29,149 bases of DNA from positions 1 through 29,149 of the IMG/VR virus record IMGVR_UViG_3300008050_000204. The stretch is one strand, 5' to 3'. The position numbers and the translations under genes were made by a program. Of this stretch, positions 16,001 through 29,149 are shown piece after piece. Origin of the DNA: a virus. How positions within the stretch are numbered: position 1 is the stretch's first letter; every line of letters begins with the position of its first letter. The notes beneath the pieces are model-generated. The model had not been told where the DNA came from. It worked only from the letters and a program-made list of their open reading frames with translations, and searched no databases.

Positions 16001-18902
16001 AGGAGGTGCAGCTATTGTATCCCTTAATCTATATAATGCCCTATTCCCAACACAAATAACTAACAATATGTTGTTTAATGGCTATGCTTTTGGAAATGGG
16101 CTAGAGAGCAATAGAATAAAAGATGACTATAACGCACCAACCCTAGAATATAGCCCTCGTGTAAGCACTATCATAGATGATTATAAGCAAGAGCGAAGGG
16201 GAGATAGTATGACGTATAGTGCAACCTATGGGTTACTTATAAATGGGTTTAATGACTTTAACTTATCTCAAGGCAATTGGAAAGATTTAGATATCTCTTT
16301 TGGCTCTATTCAAAAATTATATGCACGAGATACTAATGTTCTTGTTCTACAGCAGAATAAGGTATCTCACGTTCTTTATGGTAAAACTCTATTATCTGAT
16401 GCTGTAGGAGGAGGGCAAGTAGTAACTATTCCCGAAGTTTTAGGAAGTCAAGTTAGCTATATAGGGGAATATGGAATCAGTAATAACCCAGAATCTTTTG
16501 CTGACTGGGGGAGCGAGATTTACTTTAGCGATGAGCGCCGGGGGTGTGTAGTATCTCTACAAGGAATGGCTCTTACAGAAGTGAGTAGTTTGGGGTTAAG
16601 AGATTATTTTAAAAACTTTTATACTGAGACTTCTCAAAGTGTGAAACTGGGAGCAATCGACCCTTATAGCGAAAAATATAATCTAGCGGGAATTGATTTG
16701 CCACTGCCATGCAGTTTTAAAGTTCAAGTTAAGGGAGGTGCTTACTTGGCAAGTGGAGATGATTTTTATACTGGAAGCAGTGCTGGAACTAGGTGTTTTA
16801 TTGTAGAAACCGATGCCTCATGGTCAGTTATAGCTGTGGGTGCTCCTGCCTGGGTTCTATCTATTACTCCTACTAGTGGTTCAGGCAATGGGGGAGTATG
16901 TATAAATTTGTCAGGAACACTAGGTTCTAATAGAAGTTTTATATTGCGATTCTCAGCTTGTGGAACCACCTTCGATGTGAATATATTGCAACGAGGTATT
17001 CCAGAGGAAGTTGTGGTAGTACCTATTGTAGTCGTTAACCCTAAAGATTCTGGACAAATATTAAATCCTAGTTATGCCTATCCCGGATATACGGGGGCGG
17101 GAGGCGACTTGGACTTGCCAGGGACTATTGGCCCTGTTGGAACTATAGGGGAATGGGGCGGATCGAGTGGATGGGCTCCTAATGATGGGATACCCGATAT
17201 TGGAGATACAGTTACTTTTAGAGGGCCAGGAAACTTTGCATTGGAGGCTAACAAGGGATTTGAAGAAGGATTAAATAACGAGATGTCATATTTGGTATCT
17301 TTTATAGAGTATGGACCTAACGATCTATCTACCATCCAAGCGGCGGCCATTCCCATAGCTCCTGTATATATTGCGCCAGAACAACGGTGGGATGGACCAT
17401 TTGTGTACAACAACCCTGGAAATGATAAATATTTATATCTCCTATGGGATTATACTGATAGGATTCCAATGGGGACAACTGGAAGTTCGTTAGGGAAATT
17501 GGGAACTAATCATGTAGTCCTCGATTTTGGAACTGATGTGGGAACGGCTCAAGTCACCTATGATGCCAATACCACCCCCAATAGGTTCGTAGTAAAATAC
17601 AACAATTCAGTAGTAGGAGATACCGGCTACGTTGGGTTAAACACTTTGGCTAATTACAATGATTTAATAGCTGCAGGGGTCCCCGACTCAGAAATAAGTT
17701 TAGTTTTCCCATATGATGGCTTAGTAAATAACGGGGTAGGAACTATTGACTTTAATAAATATTCTACTGATATTACTACAGGAGAGTTAGATGTGTATAC
17801 TAAAATAACACCACTTGACGGTTGGGATGCAGGCACAATAGCTCCTTCTCTTACGGGATTCCTAATTAATAATACTCCTAGAAATACGGAATTTGATGTA
17901 TGTCCCGATACACCAGGGACGGGATACTTCCACAATGGACTTGGTCTGACCCCTGTTGTAGGAGATACCATATATACTATTGCTGATGGATCACAGATTT
18001 TTCAAGGCGATAACGCTTATTATGCTACAGGAGTGGCAGGTCCTTTAAATACGTGGGTGATTATTACCAATAGAGGAGTGGTTTCTACAGTAGGAAGTTG
18101 TGCGTGTGCTGAGGTTGCGATACCTGTTATTTTTGCTACTACCATCCCATTACAAATAGGTGCTCAAGTAAATATGTCATTAGAAGCAACAAATAATCCT
18201 ACCTCATGGGAGATCTTGTCGAGTTGCGATAATTACACCTTGTTTGGTGGAGATTCAGGAGGTACGTTTACAGGAACAAATTGTTACTCGTCATTGGCTA
18301 AAGTAGTAGTAGTAGCTAAAGGGGAATATATAGTGACGGAGTATGTAGGAGGTACAGTATCAAAAATAATGGGTGATGCGACAGCCACATTTGCGCAAGG
18401 ACAAGTTTCTCCAAATAGCCATTTCCCTCCCGGTATAACTTTAAGCCAAGAGGGTATGCTAACAGGAGAGGCTAATAAACCGGGTATTTATACTCTTTAT
18501 TTAAGAGCTACAAATTGCTTCGGGCCAAGCCTAGATTCTGCCGTGGTGATTGAGGTGGAGTCACCGGGGTACAATAGATTCTATATGAATGGGTCTACTG
18601 ACTTTGATACAGCACTTTTGGCGTGTGGAGCGATAGTCCCTGGAGGCGAAACTAGATTTTACCATGATGGTCAGTGGAATAATAATTCGGAATACCCCAT
18701 GCTTAATGACGTTGTTTATTTAGGGCAAATGAGTCCAGATGGAGATTATGTTGGGGAGGGGGTAAACAACATGGAGGATATCTACGATTCATACTATCAT
18801 AGATTTAATGGAGGAAATAAATGGTACGTGAGGGCTGATGGTGTAGCCATTCAAATTGCCATTGATGGAACTGTTATAGGAATATTCACTTGTGGTCCAT
18901 GA
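13089..18902 (+). CDS. Giant tail stabilisation/muzzle-like protein with BACON and Ig-like domains
   Basis: The 1937-aa protein opens with a stabilisation-protein signature at 16-54 (NKDDDERLLPPGEFRDAQNV, GSDIGAVENTKGN), as in P22 gp10-like and crAss muzzle proteins. The body to about 1210 fits a large beta-propeller-like tail part, ending near AIDPYSEKYNLAGIDL. A BACON domain follows at about 1240-1302: W1245 in DASWSV, then GSGNGGVCINL, then a final strand ending LQRG with Q1301. BACON is a Bacteroidetes domain thought to bind glycans or mucin. Residues 1601-1673 and 1840-1935 are two copies of a Cys-bounded module. An Ig-like (He_PIG type) domain with PPGITLSQEGMLTG and GIYTLYLRATN lies at about 1760-1824. 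It probably forms the tail end and carries adhesion domains. The first 1200 residues are the tail core and the last 700 the surface decoration. Confidence 0.8.
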   Translation: MASQNLSRSFVKGIMNKDDDERLLPPGEFRDAQNVSIGTNEGSDIGAVENTKGNINISNLGPTGSGLLTADAKCLGAISYPEEFKIYWFVRDGLISYIFEFDETNDVTTTVVADDRIVGTNVLDFQIAPITTESYLITGGNYYDGYLFWTDNYNQPRNLNIGRAKTNTANYGNAWLTRPVSEGGSLSVFDVNVIVQPPQAGPYITMVNNGTEENNLEERFVEFSYRWKYQDNRYSALSPFSATAFQPGIFQYDYVSGINKAMINVYNEVTIKFNTGMPQVEEIQIVMRDTGKSNIYIVENISKSDLGYASNIDKTLTFDNSKIYTVLSKEQLGRLYDNVPLKAQAQEIVGRRLLYGNYLEFRDLVSMGEPMGLRYTVGYNSLDLTPNATQQGYRTFRSDRDYEIGIAYLDEFQRQTTVLTPPTITTGALQSYNTVYIPPSQSASANDIQVEIFNYAPDWATHYRLYIKQRKEDYYNIFPFIFYQEGAYRWFKIERADVDKVPLGKYLIAKSDELGPTFSNTQYKVLDVGAQELNFLGNNEPPGLYFKIGVDGGEFDEKNLTNITSYSKGCIGKWGKWVKQSYYPFPVFNWRQYTNTSSPSQSFPSDQKWHWENVNHPIHYPKKTGSLNDVIIVDPTTSPDQSAFLADDRLSIIIRAGNTFDVFSWKQGTMMIGEAITGGPQTISGLGNGYQIEFPSGIGYQLGDRWVINIRSKRHWGSYSGNSSAQGTQGESLGGGNWHGVAGGVTTGIVGTYSSSGAMIDRKEGGKEGGWGIIPNDNFVTVGASNDIHNEDATDKPIKAGAQISFNYIKMLNQRTGGQNYDTPYQGPYTSSREYANIEEWFWEDEIYKVFKQLDGSGTDIGYRNVFFRRGYDWVFHGSWTSIETHAISSLAYPPVRMIIKGEGEWKNSMRAFVWVSMTIIQPENPIFFETVPIDNDSDLFHEIYTSDPLALLKAPTGENLHTGNYASQSIGGAAIVSLNLYNALFPTQITNNMLFNGYAFGNGLESNRIKDDYNAPTLEYSPRVSTIIDDYKQERRGDSMTYSATYGLLINGFNDFNLSQGNWKDLDISFGSIQKLYARDTNVLVLQQNKVSHVLYGKTLLSDAVGGGQVVTIPEVLGSQVSYIGEYGISNNPESFADWGSEIYFSDERRGCVVSLQGMALTEVSSLGLRDYFKNFYTETSQSVKLGAIDPYSEKYNLAGIDLPLPCSFKVQVKGGAYLASGDDFYTGSSAGTRCFIVETDASWSVIAVGAPAWVLSITPTSGSGNGGVCINLSGTLGSNRSFILRFSACGTTFDVNILQRGIPEEVVVVPIVVVNPKDSGQILNPSYAYPGYTGAGGDLDLPGTIGPVGTIGEWGGSSGWAPNDGIPDIGDTVTFRGPGNFALEANKGFEEGLNNEMSYLVSFIEYGPNDLSTIQAAAIPIAPVYIAPEQRWDGPFVYNNPGNDKYLYLLWDYTDRIPMGTTGSSLGKLGTNHVVLDFGTDVGTAQVTYDANTTPNRFVVKYNNSVVGDTGYVGLNTLANYNDLIAAGVPDSEISLVFPYDGLVNNGVGTIDFNKYSTDITTGELDVYTKITPLDGWDAGTIAPSLTGFLINNTPRNTEFDVCPDTPGTGYFHNGLGLTPVVGDTIYTIADGSQIFQGDNAYYATGVAGPLNTWVIITNRGVVSTVGSCACAEVAIPVIFATTIPLQIGAQVNMSLEATNNPTSWEILSSCDNYTLFGGDSGGTFTGTNCYSSLAKVVVVAKGEYIVTEYVGGTVSKIMGDATATFAQGQVSPNSHFPPGITLSQEGMLTGEANKPGIYTLYLRATNCFGPSLDSAVVIEVESPGYNRFYMNGSTDFDTALLACGAIVPGGETRFYHDGQWNNNSEYPMLNDVVYLGQMSPDGDYVGEGVNNMEDIYDSYYHRFNGGNKWYVRADGVAIQIAIDGTVIGIFTCGP

Positions 18903-22853: not shown

Positions 22854-25800
22854 ATGATAGGTACAGACAAAAAATATAAAATGCCTAATGGAGACATTTT
22901 AAGTGAAGATGAAGCCATGGAAGAGTTTGGTGATGACTTGCAAACCTATATAGCTGAAGGTCAAATCGTGGAAGTGGAAGAAGAAGAATCTGTAGCTCAA
23001 GAGGAAGCAGCGGAAGAGGAGGTGAGTGGAGATGCCCTTTTTGTTGCTCCTGACGGAAGCGAACTCAGTGAAGAGGAAGCACGAGCCGAATTAGGTGAGG
23101 CTTTCGATGCGGCGGTGACATCAGGTCAATTAAAAAAAAAAGGCGCCAGCACTACACCCCCTCCCTCTCCTAGTCCCAAACCAGCAGCCCCCTATGAAGC
23201 CCCGGTGGCAGAGGATAATGCAGCCCATGCTCAATATCTTCAAGAACAGGAAGATGGAGAGGAATTACAAACTCGCAAAGAGCCTCTTTCGTATATTGAG
23301 ATTGACCAAAAGGACGATGTTAATTATATGCTTCTTGATGGCAACACGGTTCCTTTAGAAACATTTATTGATGAGGCAGGTGAAGGCGACGCCGTAGTAA
23401 CCTTAAAAGAAAAGTATAGCAAGTATGGCTTTAAATTTACGGAAGCTGTATATGGTATGGACTATGTGGATGTAGAATCCTATGATGGTCATACCCATAG
23501 ACTTAGTTTAGATCCTTATGGCAGTAGCTATGAGGAGGCTGAGAAGTTAAAGGAATTTCTTCGAACTCATGCTGTAGATAAAACAGCTCAAGAGATTAAA
23601 GATATAAAAGAACAAGAAGGCTTGAGTTTGGGAGAAAGCACTCCTGAGATTGATGCCCTTATTAATAAAGTCACTGAGCTTTCTCAGAACCCTGAAGTCA
23701 ATAAAGACGAAATTGCTGCTCTTAATGCTAGGATTTCTCAAATGCAAAAGGCTAAAATTAAGGGAGAAACCTTAGATTGGAGGCAAGAATATTTTAAGAA
23801 GGAAGATTTAGAGTGGGGCAATATTGATGACCAACTAGCTCCCCTTCGCAAAGAACGCAAAACAGCTACCGAAGCTAGGCAAAAAGAAATTGATAAAGAG
23901 ATAGCTCGAATAAGATGGGAGGCAGGAATGTCCGGTAAGATAAATATTGCCGAAGAAGAAATCATGCGATTAGAGGCCCGTATCAATGATATTGAATCGA
24001 ACCCTGCCGACACCCAAACAAAAAATATTGGATACGATCCTAAGTTTCCTCAATATGAAGAGGTCCCGGTTTTAAGTAAGGCTCAAGAAGCGGAGATAGC
24101 AAGACTAGAGGGAGAAATAGATGAGATGATAGCTGAGAATCCTGCTTTAGGAAGCGGAAAGTATACCACCGCAAAATTAGAGACTGATAGAATCTTAGCA
24201 CGAGCCCATAGGGTGACCGCAGAAAAAGCCACTAAAGAAAATAATAAACTTAAAGAAGAAGTTTCTGAAATAGATAAAAAGTCTATCGAAAAGTTTGGAG
24301 TTCCTTTATCGAAGTTGTCTACAGTAACACTGGAAACTCAAGAAGATGTAGATGCAGCCAACCAACTAATTGCGGAGAGAACTATAGTTAGAGATAAAGA
24401 GATAATGACAGCCCAAACTTATAGGATGTCAGGTTTGTACTTCGATGAAAAAACCAATAAAGGCATTCAAGAAGAGTTTGTAGGAGAGTGGGAAGGATTC
24501 ACCAATCAGATGGCTAAAGGCTTTAGTCAAGGTGTCAGTGTAACAGATATGTTAAAGGTAGAGGCAGGTGCTCATACCGACAAAGAGTTTGCTCAAATAT
24601 TGGCAGCCGAAGAGGCATATAGGCAGACTCTATACGACTCCGAGGCGGTAGCCAAATTTAATGGAGCTAAGACATTTGCCGAACAATTAAGTGTTTTTGG
24701 TAACGATCCCTTTGAAATAATAGGTGGGTTAGCAGCTAACTCTTTAGCTATGATGTTGCCTATTGCCGCTCATATAATGCCTACCACAATGGCTGTCGGT
24801 GGGGTAATAGGGTTTACGGGAGGCCTTGGGTTTGGAGCTCTCCCCGGACTGATAGGGGGTGCTGAAGTAGGAATGTTTATGACCACCACGGCGATGGAAT
24901 ATGGCAATACCATTATGGATACTATGCGTCAGTCTATCAACCCCAATACAGGACGACACTATGATTTAAGTAACCCTGATGATATAATGGCTGGTCTGGC
25001 CGATAAAGAGGTTATGAATACAGGTCGTCTCCAAGGGTTGATAAGAGGAGTAACAATTGGCGCTGTAGATAAGATTACGGGAAATATGTTAGGGCGTTTT
25101 GCTAATCCATTCATAAATAAGTGGGCTAATATTGGAGGCACCTTAGCTGGGGCCACAGTGATAAGCCCTATTACTGAGGGTATGGGTGAGGCTGCGGCAC
25201 AGATATTATCAGGTCAAGGGTATAAGGCTACCGAGGTTTTCGCTGAGATGGTAGGTGGCCCTGGAATGACAGCCACGCAAACTAGTATGTCTATTCTTAG
25301 AGAACTAAGTGATGCCAATCAATTTGACTTAGGTAAAAAAATAAGTTTCTTGCCGGATATGATGCAATATGGGCAAAGTGCTGCAACAATAAATAAGTGG
25401 GCTGACAAAGCCTTAGCGGCAGGAGTTCTCAATAAGAGAATCCATGGCTATATCAAACAGAACTCCAACATAAAGTCTCAGGTAGACCAGAAGTTTGACC
25501 TCGTGAAGAAGGGTACCAGTTTTAACCTATTTAAAAACAGAGATGGAAGGAAGATAAAGAACGCCTTAACCAACCTCATCTTCAAAAGACAAAAACTTGA
25601 ACTCAATCCTGATGGCAATAAAGAACAAATAAAAGAGTTAACGGAGGCCATTGACAATATAGTAAAGAATAAAAAGGTAGATCAATCTGCTACCAACTTA
25701 TCTGATAGTATTCGAAAAGAGATGGATATTGATAAGAGGGAATTAGAGTTAGAGAATGAGAGAGATAATCTCTTATCGCAAAACCCTCTTAGTGAAAAAG

Positions 25801-28800
25801 CTAAATTAAAAAGAGAGATCGCCTTAGATGAAGTCTATGAGGGATTGAAAGGGGTTCAACAACTTAAACAAATGCAGGAAGCGGGGGTAGATATTCAAAG
25901 TCTAACTAAGCCCTTTCAGACTCTCTCTAAAAAAGAAAAAGCACAGCGAGTAACTAACCTAAAGAAAGTTGCTGAGAAAGTTGGTAAATCACTAGGGAAA
26001 ATAATTGATCCCAAGATGATTCATGTAGCTGACTCTCAAGAAGCCTATAATAAAGCCGTTAAGGATGCGGGATTAAAATTAATTAAAGGGGAGAGTGCAG
26101 CAGTAGACTTTGATAAAGATACGGGTAAACTAAAAACATTCATTGTCAATGCAGCCTTAGCTGATGAGAAGAGTGTCATGCACGAAGCCTTCCATGTGGT
26201 ATTACAAAACACCTTTGGCAATGACCAAAAACGATTTGCTACCTTTCAGCAGGACATAAGTTCTAGGCTAAAGAAAGCGGGCTATGGGAATTTAGCTCGT
26301 AGGATGGCTAAGTTCAGTAAGCAATATGAAAAAGGAGTGCGGTCCGAGGAGTTTCTGGTGGAGCTTGGAGCCGCCTTAACGGATGATGGCTTTGATGCTA
26401 AAACCTTAACGGATGAGCAAAAGACCATACTACAGCAGATAGCTGAAATGATAAACAAAATTATTAGGGAGGTTACAGGCAATGAAGAGGCAACGCTAGA
26501 TGAGAATAACCCTCAAGATATTCTATCTTTTTTAACTGAGACAGCAGCAAATTTAAAAACGGGCCAAGAGGTAGGTACACCAACCAAGGTCACTACGACT
26601 AAGCAGAAAAAAGCTAAAGCGAATAGAGAGGCACGAAAAAAAGAGATGGCTAAGAAGCGTAAGGAAGAGCGTGAAGCTAAAGAAAAGAAAGGGTTTAAAG
26701 AAAGATTAACAGGCGCAGCTAAGAAAAAAGCCGAGCAAGTAAAGGAAATGCTAGAAGGAATTTCCGAGAAGAAAGCTAGAGGCGAAAGAGCGAAAAGGAA
26801 TACGGGCAAACAGTTAGAGATAGAATTTAGCGAAACAGATATTGAAGCCTTAGCAGAGGGAGCATCGGTTCCTATTGGTAAAGCCAAAAAACTAAAGAAG
26901 CCTGGTCGTCGTTCTAGGCTAGGAAAGAAAATAAAGTTTGAAAAAAGCTACCCACTTTCGTATGTTAAACCTAGTGACAGTTTAGATTTGTTAGCTCTCA
27001 TAGATGAGATTATAGCCAAAGGGCAGCAGGTTATGTTTTGGACTGCCGACCAATTGGGCAGAGGAATCTATGAAGATGTAGTCATAAATAAAGAGCACTT
27101 TTTAGATGCTGGTCCTAGTTATGCATTAGATCCTACCCATAGGGAAGAGGGCAAAATATGGGCTACAGGAGCGGAGACTAAAAGTCTAGAAAATAAAATC
27201 GACGCTGATTACATCTTTATTGTAAGTGGTTCTCCATCTCAAAGTATGCTCTTTAATAAGAAGGTGTTTGATGTTCATAAAGATAGGATAGGAGATTTCA
27301 AGAAATTCAAAAAGGATGTTCTAGGATTAAAGAAAGTTGTTAAAGGGCTAAAAGAAGTTGTGGAGGCTCACGATAGTTGGGCTTCTCTACGTAAAGATCC
27401 TACTCTTGACAAGGTTCTTAGTGTGAAGAAGGCTAGGCAGCAATTGATTGATAAAGCTGCTAAACAGAAATTGATAGATCATGGAATTAAGAATCCGACT
27501 GACGCTCAAATTAAGGAAGCTACGGCCAATAAAGCATTCAAAACCCTATTTGAACCCACGGAGGCTCAAGTAAAAGCAGCCCATGAAGCTGGCAACAAAA
27601 TAGGAACGGGACGGAAGAAATTTCTTCAACTCATGGGGGAACAACGGACAAAGTCAAGAACTGCATTCAATAAACTTATGACACCAAAGGAGGGCTTTAT
27701 AGATGTTAATACACTTAGAGATGGATTCTATAAGGATAATGACTTTCAGATGAACGACATCATGTTAGTTTTAAAGCCTAATCAAAAAACTCAAAAAAGT
27801 TCTCACTCTACCTATCATACTGATATAATGGGAAAAGTTGTGGGTGTTCCCAATCAGAAGATTGATGCTTTTGAAGTAATGCCTAAAGAGCTAATGCACA
27901 AATATGATTTAGTTGCTGATGAGGCAGGTAGGGAGAGATGGACTATGATGTCAAAGAAGAAGGGCAGAGTAGAGCTGGGTGAAGCCAACAAGAACCAAAC
28001 GATAGCCCCTTATGGTATGCGTAAGACCAAACTACAACGACCTGAAGTACTCCGTCGTTCTCAAATTAAAGATGAGGTTTGGAAGTCTACGGCTATTGAG
28101 GGACTAGAGGTGATTCAACAAAACGCAGCTACCCCGGAGCAATGGATGAAGCAGATAGCTGAGAAGGGGGGGGTAGGTACTAAAGCCGAGCTAGAAGCTA
28201 TTGGGCTAGGTCAGTTCTTAAAAGAGTACCAACGTGAACACGGTGGGCGCTCTATTCCTAAAGCCGCAGTAGTAGAGTTTGTCACTAAGAATCAACTTCA
28301 AATAGAGGAGGTGGTATTAGGGGAGTCTGCCGCTAAAGAGGCCCTGAATTTAGATAGTCAATATGCTATTCCTGAAGTAGTAGACTTTGTAACAAAAAAT
28401 CAAGGTGTGGGTATTGACGCTTTGGAAATAGGACTTGCTAATGATTACGACGTATATAATGCTATAAATACCGCTTTTCCCGACTTGATGGAGAATGATG
28501 AAATGTGGGAAGAAACGGTTATAGATGATGTAGTAAGAGAGAAGTCCGAATTACACACCCCCTTTCACGAGACCGAAGTTCTACCCGGAGGGACGAACTA
28601 CAGAGAGGTATTGTTGAGAAGGCCCGAACAAACTAGGCCTGCTATTTTGGATAAGAACGTGGTGGAGAGAGATGGAGAATATTTTGTATCAGGCTTGGAC
28701 TATATACCTTTTAACACCAAGGAGGAGGCGCAAGAATATATTGACAAGAATTATAAGACTGCTAAAAAATTAGTGCCAGGAACTACTTTCTCAGAACGAG

Positions 28801-29149
28801 CGCATTTTGGTGGTATGCAGAATATCCTAGCTCATTTCAGAATCAATGATAGGAACCTAACTGTACCTAACCCTAATTACGTTAACCCAGATTCAATTGA
28901 ACTAGACTTTGATGAGGCTTTTGAATTAGTGGATAGAGGAAGCGCATATCAAATCAGAAATAAATCTAAGGATGTCAGGTATGCAAATAGTTACCCTAAA
29001 TCTAAGATAGAGGAGCTTGGCATGAGTCTGAACGATTTTAAAGAAGATATGGTGAACCGACTCAGAAAAGAGCACCCTAAATTCCAAGAAATAAATAGGA
29101 CTAACACTAAAAATATCCAACAAAAAGTTTTATTTGTTGAGGAGATACA
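22854..29149 (+). CDS. Giant phage polyvalent protein with HEAFH metalloprotease domain (3'-truncated)
   Basis: One frame runs without a stop from the ATG at 22854, one base after the previous stop, to the window edge (2098 full codons). Two acidic repeats at 8-41 and 62-96 precede a Pro-rich linker. Long coiled coils follow to about 600. Residues 624-681 are hydrophobic and Gly-rich (VGGVIGFTGGLGFGALPGLI), like a membrane-active segment. HEAFH at 1110-1114 with downstream EEFLVE (1165-1170) forms a likely gluzincin zinc protease site. About 1243-1320 is Lys-rich. An uncharacterised domain with FWTADQLGRG begins near 1380. From 1755 the sequence matches phage large polyvalent proteins: ATPEQW, VTKNQL, VTKNQG, LPGGTNYREVLL (1910-1921) and VLFVEEI at the edge. 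Such proteins are packed in the head and ejected to act on the host. The protease substrate is unknown. Confidence 0.75.
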   Translation, partial: MIGTDKKYKMPNGDILSEDEAMEEFGDDLQTYIAEGQIVEVEEEESVAQEEAAEEEVSGDALFVAPDGSELSEEEARAELGEAFDAAVTSGQLKKKGASTTPPPSPSPKPAAPYEAPVAEDNAAHAQYLQEQEDGEELQTRKEPLSYIEIDQKDDVNYMLLDGNTVPLETFIDEAGEGDAVVTLKEKYSKYGFKFTEAVYGMDYVDVESYDGHTHRLSLDPYGSSYEEAEKLKEFLRTHAVDKTAQEIKDIKEQEGLSLGESTPEIDALINKVTELSQNPEVNKDEIAALNARISQMQKAKIKGETLDWRQEYFKKEDLEWGNIDDQLAPLRKERKTATEARQKEIDKEIARIRWEAGMSGKINIAEEEIMRLEARINDIESNPADTQTKNIGYDPKFPQYEEVPVLSKAQEAEIARLEGEIDEMIAENPALGSGKYTTAKLETDRILARAHRVTAEKATKENNKLKEEVSEIDKKSIEKFGVPLSKLSTVTLETQEDVDAANQLIAERTIVRDKEIMTAQTYRMSGLYFDEKTNKGIQEEFVGEWEGFTNQMAKGFSQGVSVTDMLKVEAGAHTDKEFAQILAAEEAYRQTLYDSEAVAKFNGAKTFAEQLSVFGNDPFEIIGGLAANSLAMMLPIAAHIMPTTMAVGGVIGFTGGLGFGALPGLIGGAEVGMFMTTTAMEYGNTIMDTMRQSINPNTGRHYDLSNPDDIMAGLADKEVMNTGRLQGLIRGVTIGAVDKITGNMLGRFANPFINKWANIGGTLAGATVISPITEGMGEAAAQILSGQGYKATEVFAEMVGGPGMTATQTSMSILRELSDANQFDLGKKISFLPDMMQYGQSAATINKWADKALAAGVLNKRIHGYIKQNSNIKSQVDQKFDLVKKGTSFNLFKNRDGRKIKNALTNLIFKRQKLELNPDGNKEQIKELTEAIDNIVKNKKVDQSATNLSDSIRKEMDIDKRELELENERDNLLSQNPLSEKAKLKREIALDEVYEGLKGVQQLKQMQEAGVDIQSLTKPFQTLSKKEKAQRVTNLKKVAEKVGKSLGKIIDPKMIHVADSQEAYNKAVKDAGLKLIKGESAAVDFDKDTGKLKTFIVNAALADEKSVMHEAFHVVLQNTFGNDQKRFATFQQDISSRLKKAGYGNLARRMAKFSKQYEKGVRSEEFLVELGAALTDDGFDAKTLTDEQKTILQQIAEMINKIIREVTGNEEATLDENNPQDILSFLTETAANLKTGQEVGTPTKVTTTKQKKAKANREARKKEMAKKRKEEREAKEKKGFKERLTGAAKKKAEQVKEMLEGISEKKARGERAKRNTGKQLEIEFSETDIEALAEGASVPIGKAKKLKKPGRRSRLGKKIKFEKSYPLSYVKPSDSLDLLALIDEIIAKGQQVMFWTADQLGRGIYEDVVINKEHFLDAGPSYALDPTHREEGKIWATGAETKSLENKIDADYIFIVSGSPSQSMLFNKKVFDVHKDRIGDFKKFKKDVLGLKKVVKGLKEVVEAHDSWASLRKDPTLDKVLSVKKARQQLIDKAAKQKLIDHGIKNPTDAQIKEATANKAFKTLFEPTEAQVKAAHEAGNKIGTGRKKFLQLMGEQRTKSRTAFNKLMTPKEGFIDVNTLRDGFYKDNDFQMNDIMLVLKPNQKTQKSSHSTYHTDIMGKVVGVPNQKIDAFEVMPKELMHKYDLVADEAGRERWTMMSKKKGRVELGEANKNQTIAPYGMRKTKLQRPEVLRRSQIKDEVWKSTAIEGLEVIQQNAATPEQWMKQIAEKGGVGTKAELEAIGLGQFLKEYQREHGGRSIPKAAVVEFVTKNQLQIEEVVLGESAAKEALNLDSQYAIPEVVDFVTKNQGVGIDALEIGLANDYDVYNAINTAFPDLMENDEMWEETVIDDVVREKSELHTPFHETEVLPGGTNYREVLLRRPEQTRPAILDKNVVERDGEYFVSGLDYIPFNTKEEAQEYIDKNYKTAKKLVPGTTFSERAHFGGMQNILAHFRINDRNLTVPNPNYVNPDSIELDFDEAFELVDRGSAYQIRNKSKDVRYANSYPKSKIEELGMSLNDFKEDMVNRLRKEHPKFQEINRTNTKNIQQKVLFVEEI
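23132..23141 (+). other. A10 homopolymer in polyvalent gene (possible slippage site)
   Basis: Ten A lie in the frame TTA AAA AAA AAA GGC at codons 93-97, right after the second acidic repeat. Addition of one A during transcription would end translation about ten codons later at a TAG, giving a short N-terminal product of about 106 residues. This is the longest A run I saw inside a gene here. Slippage is a possibility, not shown. Confidence 0.3.

Follow-up and report, generated by a model that had tools for sequence, protein, structure and literature searches.

A predicted zincin-like metallopeptidase domain of the polyvalent-protein class in a giant virion-type protein from a relative of Cellulophaga phage phi38:1

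Zincin-like metallopeptidase (MPTase) domains of phage polyvalent proteins were described in 2017 and comprise 12 clades (Iyer et al. 2017, PMC5512222). Cutting of the chain at its own module junctions was proposed for P1 DdrB and other polyvalent proteins; DdrB carries an MPTase and is cleaved before packaging, and the virion RNA polymerase (vRNAP) of phage N4, which bears a related domain, is packaged uncleaved (PMC5512222). The C1 (HExxH) domain of N4 vRNAP has a solved structure (PDB 9pnr and others), whose authors note the HExxH; the available part of that paper reports no proteolysis by the domain (PMC12633501). The role of the polyvalent MPTases has been a question since 2017, apparently also for N4 vRNAP. 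We compared with these systems a domain in the last structural ORF of a 29,149-base virus record, the whole of which is called the window here.

The giant ORF and its gene neighbourhood

The run of structural genes in the window ends with the giant ORF P0001, which is truncated at its 3' end and thus has 2098 or more residues. Its features outside the MPTase domain are as follows.

22854..29147, + strand: giant virion-type ORF P0001, 2098 aa, open at the 3' end of the window
24171..25964, + strand: conserved N-terminal module, residues about 440-1036, common to MW202828 and several IMG/VR giants
24711..24842, + strand: hydrophobic segment, residues 620-663 (Kyte-Doolittle scan; maximum mean 1.5, weak)
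26586..26843, + strand: Lys/Arg/Glu-rich linker, residues about 1245-1330, after the MPTase domain

Upstream of P0001 lie a terminase (phrog_6681), a portal (phrog_6547) and other virion genes. Their order is shared with Cellulophaga phi38:1 and phi18:3, Flavobacterium elemoA, Maribacter Panino and the phage MW202828; the terminase of MW202828 is 67% identical to that of the window. The window phage is a relative of phi38:1, the Flavobacterium elemo phages and MW202828. P0001 is syntenic with phi38:1 gp101, phi18:3 gp123 and elemoA gp21, and the annotation of gp123 records that MS/MS detected it in virions. Its gene position and this detection of the phi18:3 giant in the equivalent position make the reading of P0001 as a virion protein well founded, and it is probably packaged in the phage particle. 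Its ejection into the host is inferred from the virion-detected phi18:3 giant and by analogy with N4 vRNAP (PMC12633501) and the crAss001 cargo proteins (PMC10172136).

The N-terminal module matches MW202828, L087, L062 and L091 with blastp E values of 1e-36 to 1e-53, and residues 620-663 are candidate membrane-inserting helices by their hydrophobicity. K+R+E+Q make up 46% of the 120 residues that follow the domain, the 96th percentile within P0001. This linker is strong in the window but most relatives do not share it; it was thus excluded as evidence, and the idea of a low-complexity linker as a general cleavage site was dropped. A second conserved module (window 26823-28049, residues 1324-1732) is common to L113/L114 and L016; it is 45% identical to L113/L114 over residues 1324-1516 and 40% over 1587-1732, and has no Pfam match. 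Reading the truncated end of P0001 as an LPD23 domain was a guess that Pfam did not support. Upstream, P0003 runs on beyond its conserved part (window 16740-18902, after residue 1217) with a stretch that by eye resembles an Ig-like domain of the BACON type (DASWS...PAWVLSITPTSGSGNGG...RSFILRFSACGTTFDVNILQRG).

Residues, predicted fold and family of the domain

The domain and its key residues are located as follows.

25929..26573, + strand: zincin-like MPTase domain, residues about 1026-1240 (alignments A6/A8, AlphaFold2 models, hhalign to the N4 vRNAP MPTase)
26148..26150, + strand: N1099, end of the strand preceding the HExxH helix; invariant in A8
26181..26195, + strand: HEAFH, residues 1110-1114; predicted zinc ligands H1110 and H1114, general base E1111
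26325..26327, + strand: Y1158, invariant (23/23)
26349..26351, + strand: E1166, predicted third zinc ligand, invariant (23/23)
26361..26363, + strand: E1170, probable second-shell residue, E in 21/23

The preliminary description had placed HEAFH at residues 1110-1114 of the giant protein and EEFLVE at residues 1165-1170, and both lie there (nt 26181-26195 and nt 26346-26363). It had also claimed a hydrophobic strand ahead of HEAFH, which agrees with a predicted strand at about 1093-1099 followed by the HExxH helix at about 1105-1121; the stretch KTFIVNAALADEKSVM begins at residue 1094. HEAFH is the only HExxH in the 2098 residues of P0001. A bare HExxH is weak evidence by itself, since one occurs in 2.9% of shuffled P0001 sequences; HEAFH is much more than this because the surrounding domain of about 215 residues is conserved.

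Searches with the domain as a single sequence (tblastn in phages, phmmer in the PDB and a scan of viral contigs) gave no match. The family was reached through the conserved upstream structural protein P0003 (alignment A3), which led to syntenic loci and a first domain alignment, A4. By this route over 20 related domains were found in giant ORFs; at least 20 giant proteins of phages have the domain. The alignment A8 holds 23 rows, one row from the phage record collection having been left out, and its sequences are 14-30% identical to the window copy. The family profile matches elemoA gp21, which was held out of the alignment, at E 2e-60. N1099, H1110, E1111, Y1158 and E1166 are invariant in A8 (23/23), while H1114, E1165 and E1170 each occur in 21 of the 23 rows; all three predicted ligands together with the general base are likewise kept in 21/23. 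N1099 is replaced by D in L163, one further family member. The core pattern of the family is IxIN...A..RTVAHExxH ... F...Y.....EExLaEl. Both E1166 and E1170 had been put forward as candidates for the third ligand. The two can be told apart: E1166 is present in 23/23, and E1170 gives way to L or V in 2/23, so that E1166 is the likely third ligand on this conservation. E1170, four residues further on, would lie on the same helix face and is thus probably a second-shell residue, comparable to thermolysin, in which D170 is located behind E166 on the same helix face.

AlphaFold2 was run on A8 for the whole domain (pLDDT 86, pTM 0.76) and on A10 for the core. The core model, from a prediction that the preliminary description had proposed as a check, is ordered as in zincins with pLDDT 93 and pTM 0.85: helix, strand, helix, strand, strand, HExxH helix, two helices and the Glu helix. 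E1166 falls on this last helix, predicted at about 1160-1177. The model agrees in element order only with the polyvalent MPTase core, which consists of an N-terminal helix, three strands and two C-terminal helices, and the published description permits additional helices between the two conserved C-terminal helices, as seen here (PMC5512222). As in that class, the HExxH lies on a helix, and the second conserved C-terminal helix bears the glutamate. Foldseek found no match with E <= 0.001 in the PDB for either the full or the core model. At rank 6 of the PDB matches was selecase 4qhi, a metallopeptidase, with a probability of 0.14, not significant. Against the viral library, the best Foldseek matches were elemo and other giants.

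Profile comparison links the domain to a recognized polyvalent MPTase. With an alignment of the N4 vRNAP MPTase region built from 11 Schitoviridae-type phages, hhalign gave 86% and E 4.9e-6 for A8, with HEAFH aligned on HELVH, and 93% and E 2.3e-7 for the wider alignment A5; two unrelated control alignments gave 0.1% and E about 0.5. Some family members also match phrog_2206 'virion RNA polymerase' and phrog_87 'metallo-protease'. For the window domain itself, Pfam, NCBIfam and PHROGs returned only sub-threshold, mutually inconsistent matches, which makes it likely that annotation pipelines overlook the family. A PDB sequence search with the profiles gave chance helical matches; HExxH stretches appeared there only at E 0.09-1.9, from M3 and IrrE. 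Peptidase M78 (IrrE/ImmA) was not supported as the family: PF06114 did not match the window and reached E 0.044 in 1 of 14 relatives, and hhalign against a shallow M78 alignment of 4 sequences gave 7-48%. Nor did P0001 match an N4-like vRNAP as far as it was read: Pfam and PHROGs recognized no single-subunit RNAP module in the 2098 residues, the 3' part lying beyond the window.

Family conservation, the predicted fold and the profile match together rule out HEAFH as a chance motif, and the domain is very probably a zincin-like MPTase of the polyvalent-protein class. The claim of a zinc-protease domain as in phage polyvalent proteins stands as to the zincin-like domain, with its HExxH helix after a core strand and a later Glu helix; its protease activity is a matter of graded likelihood, treated below.

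Modularity, distribution and departures from the motif

Among 20 family members, the domain is recognizable in 172 of 190 pairs, whereas the 300-residue flanks of the same members match in only 29/190 pairs upstream and 15/190 downstream. On this sequence comparison, the domain is a mobile or exchanged unit at junctions between exchangeable modules of mosaic proteins. As expected of polyvalent proteins, it is embedded in a multidomain phage protein beside virion genes.

Syntenic giants of known length number 23, and 16 of them carry some HExxH while 7 do not. The latter include phi38:1, phi18:3 and Panino, whose structural gene order matches. This bears on the proposal that the domain matures virion cargo. 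A protease acting on other structural proteins of the particle would suit a domain encoded in the structural operon; for some jumbo phages, such a role has been proposed for zincin-like enzymes (PMC7824862). However, phi38:1, phi18:3 and Panino make virions with giants that have no HExxH, which led us to reject an essential maturation protease and makes a maturation role very improbable.

The same accessory distribution (16/23 with, 7 without) favors a host target. The domain would then act in trans as an active metallopeptidase, ejected to cut, soon after infection begins, a defence or regulatory protein of the host. Several HExxH types (HEFGH, HEMGH, HEVLH and HESVH) occur in giants at the same position, and limited distribution and variability have been used as such an argument for phage metallopeptidases (PMC7824862). 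On the other hand, the domain sits in mid-protein between exchangeable modules and not at a terminus, and the good conservation of its core from phage to phage would suit a substrate that stays constant, for example its own chain. We regard a host target as unlikely, and rank it next after self-cutting.

The type HEMGHVWT is found in L165, L168, L173 and L174, and HEFGH[VI]W in L171 and L172, all syntenic giants, at residues about 1590-2140; thus several metallopeptidase-like clades share one gene position. Two different HExxH domains occur in L164 (+ strand ORF, 3526 aa; motifs at 1217 and 2101) and in L016:965. The second of these is of the HE[IV]QH type and lies further on than the window-type domain; in L016 it is preceded by an LPD23 domain. 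Giants with HExxH are longer (median 3021 versus 2526 aa, P 0.004; 23 giants, some of them close relatives). This difference supports self-cleavage only weakly, because the number of domains of any type rises with protein length. In cellular genomes the domain is rare: a scan of genome contigs found it at 2 loci, each in a MAG, and none of 60 relatives of one domain-bearing MAG has the domain. In L132 (RFPL01000025.1, a Sphingomonadaceae MAG), one domain copy lies near a contig end; the contig probably belongs to a prophage or to a phage that was binned together with its host.

The window domain has its closest relatives in four IMG/VR contigs of one lineage (L097:6043, L098, L099 and L100:6043), 36% identical over 122 residues. 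They have HETWE in place of HExxH, the second histidine being a glutamate, and keep the equivalents of H1110, E1111, E1166 and E1170. This site may be a different metal site or have lost activity. At the level of sequence, the lineage shows that the fold can outlast the canonical triad, and the window's own site is intact. Relatives lacking the motif had been named as telling against the first reading of the domain. Such relatives were found in part (L097-L100, and the 7 of 23 same-position giants), and they argue against an essential role in virion maturation, not against domain identity.

Possible function and comparison with known systems

The domain is, from its conserved residues, likely to be an active enzyme. 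H1110, H1114 and E1166 would hold a zinc ion and E1111 is predicted to activate water for catalysis. The substrate may be its own polypeptide, a role to which we give slightly less than an even chance. P0001 would be packaged and then ejected into the host, and the domain would cut its own chain, either within the particle or once refolded in the cell. The cut would free the downstream module, or separate it from the upstream membrane or ejection part. Taken as a whole, the best reading is a polyvalent MPTase in a packaged, ejected giant, most likely self-cutting, with a probability of about 0.5. More tentatively, the domain could be a mobile self-cleaving 'cutter' module among the giants of Bacteroidota phages, placed at cargo-module junctions. 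One ejected chain would then be split into separate early-infection proteins, and one lineage would have swapped the second zinc histidine for glutamate (HETWE), with another metal or lost activity.

Against the best reading stand the lack of a significant Foldseek match in the PDB, the HETWE of the closest relatives and the uncleaved state of N4 vRNAP. These points also favor a zincin-like fold that is no protease in practice, serving as a structural or packaging module or as another metal-dependent enzyme, e.g. of the alphaKG-HExxH kind cited for the N4 domain. The MPTase region of N4 vRNAP is indeed needed for encapsidation of a protein that stays whole (PMC5512222), and the authors of the N4 structure mention both zincins and radical-SAM-linked HExxH enzymes (PMC12633501). 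However, 21/23 members keep the ligands and the general base, and such selection is hard to explain without catalysis or metal binding. We consider a non-protease role improbable, somewhat more so than a host target. The domain is well bounded with named residues, which makes it a useful test case: the phage group has cultured carriers, the elemo phages on Flavobacterium, and one point mutation could test the role of the polyvalent MPTases.

Among the known systems, P1 DdrB is comparable by its description, as a packaged polyvalent protein with a C-terminal MPTase and proteolytic processing before packaging (PMC5512222). N4 vRNAP C1 resembles the window domain over the strand-HExxH part (hhalign 86-93%), and its Glu-helix motif E-F-[LM]-[AV] is similar by eye. 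C1 is preceded by a membrane-inserting N-terminal part, and the window domain by a hydrophobic stretch. However, identity is about 10-16% in the aligned part, hhalign stops short of the Glu helix, and the RNA polymerase module of N4 vRNAP has no recognized counterpart in the window protein. ElemoA gp21 (YP_010108907.1, 'structural protein') shares the domain family (E 2e-60), the gene position, HEIFH and NEEKLSEL, whereas the other modules of this 3694-residue protein differ and its annotation is only structural protein/DUF3293. Lastly, the polyvalent MPTases as a class share with the window the HExxH on the first conserved C-terminal helix, the Glu on a later helix, the preceding strands and the embedding in a multidomain giant adjoining virion genes; unlike them, the window copy has no Pfam, NCBIfam or PHROGs model at a sound score. 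In summary, the window domain is a real, well-bounded member of a class known since 2017, and is ordinary in kind.
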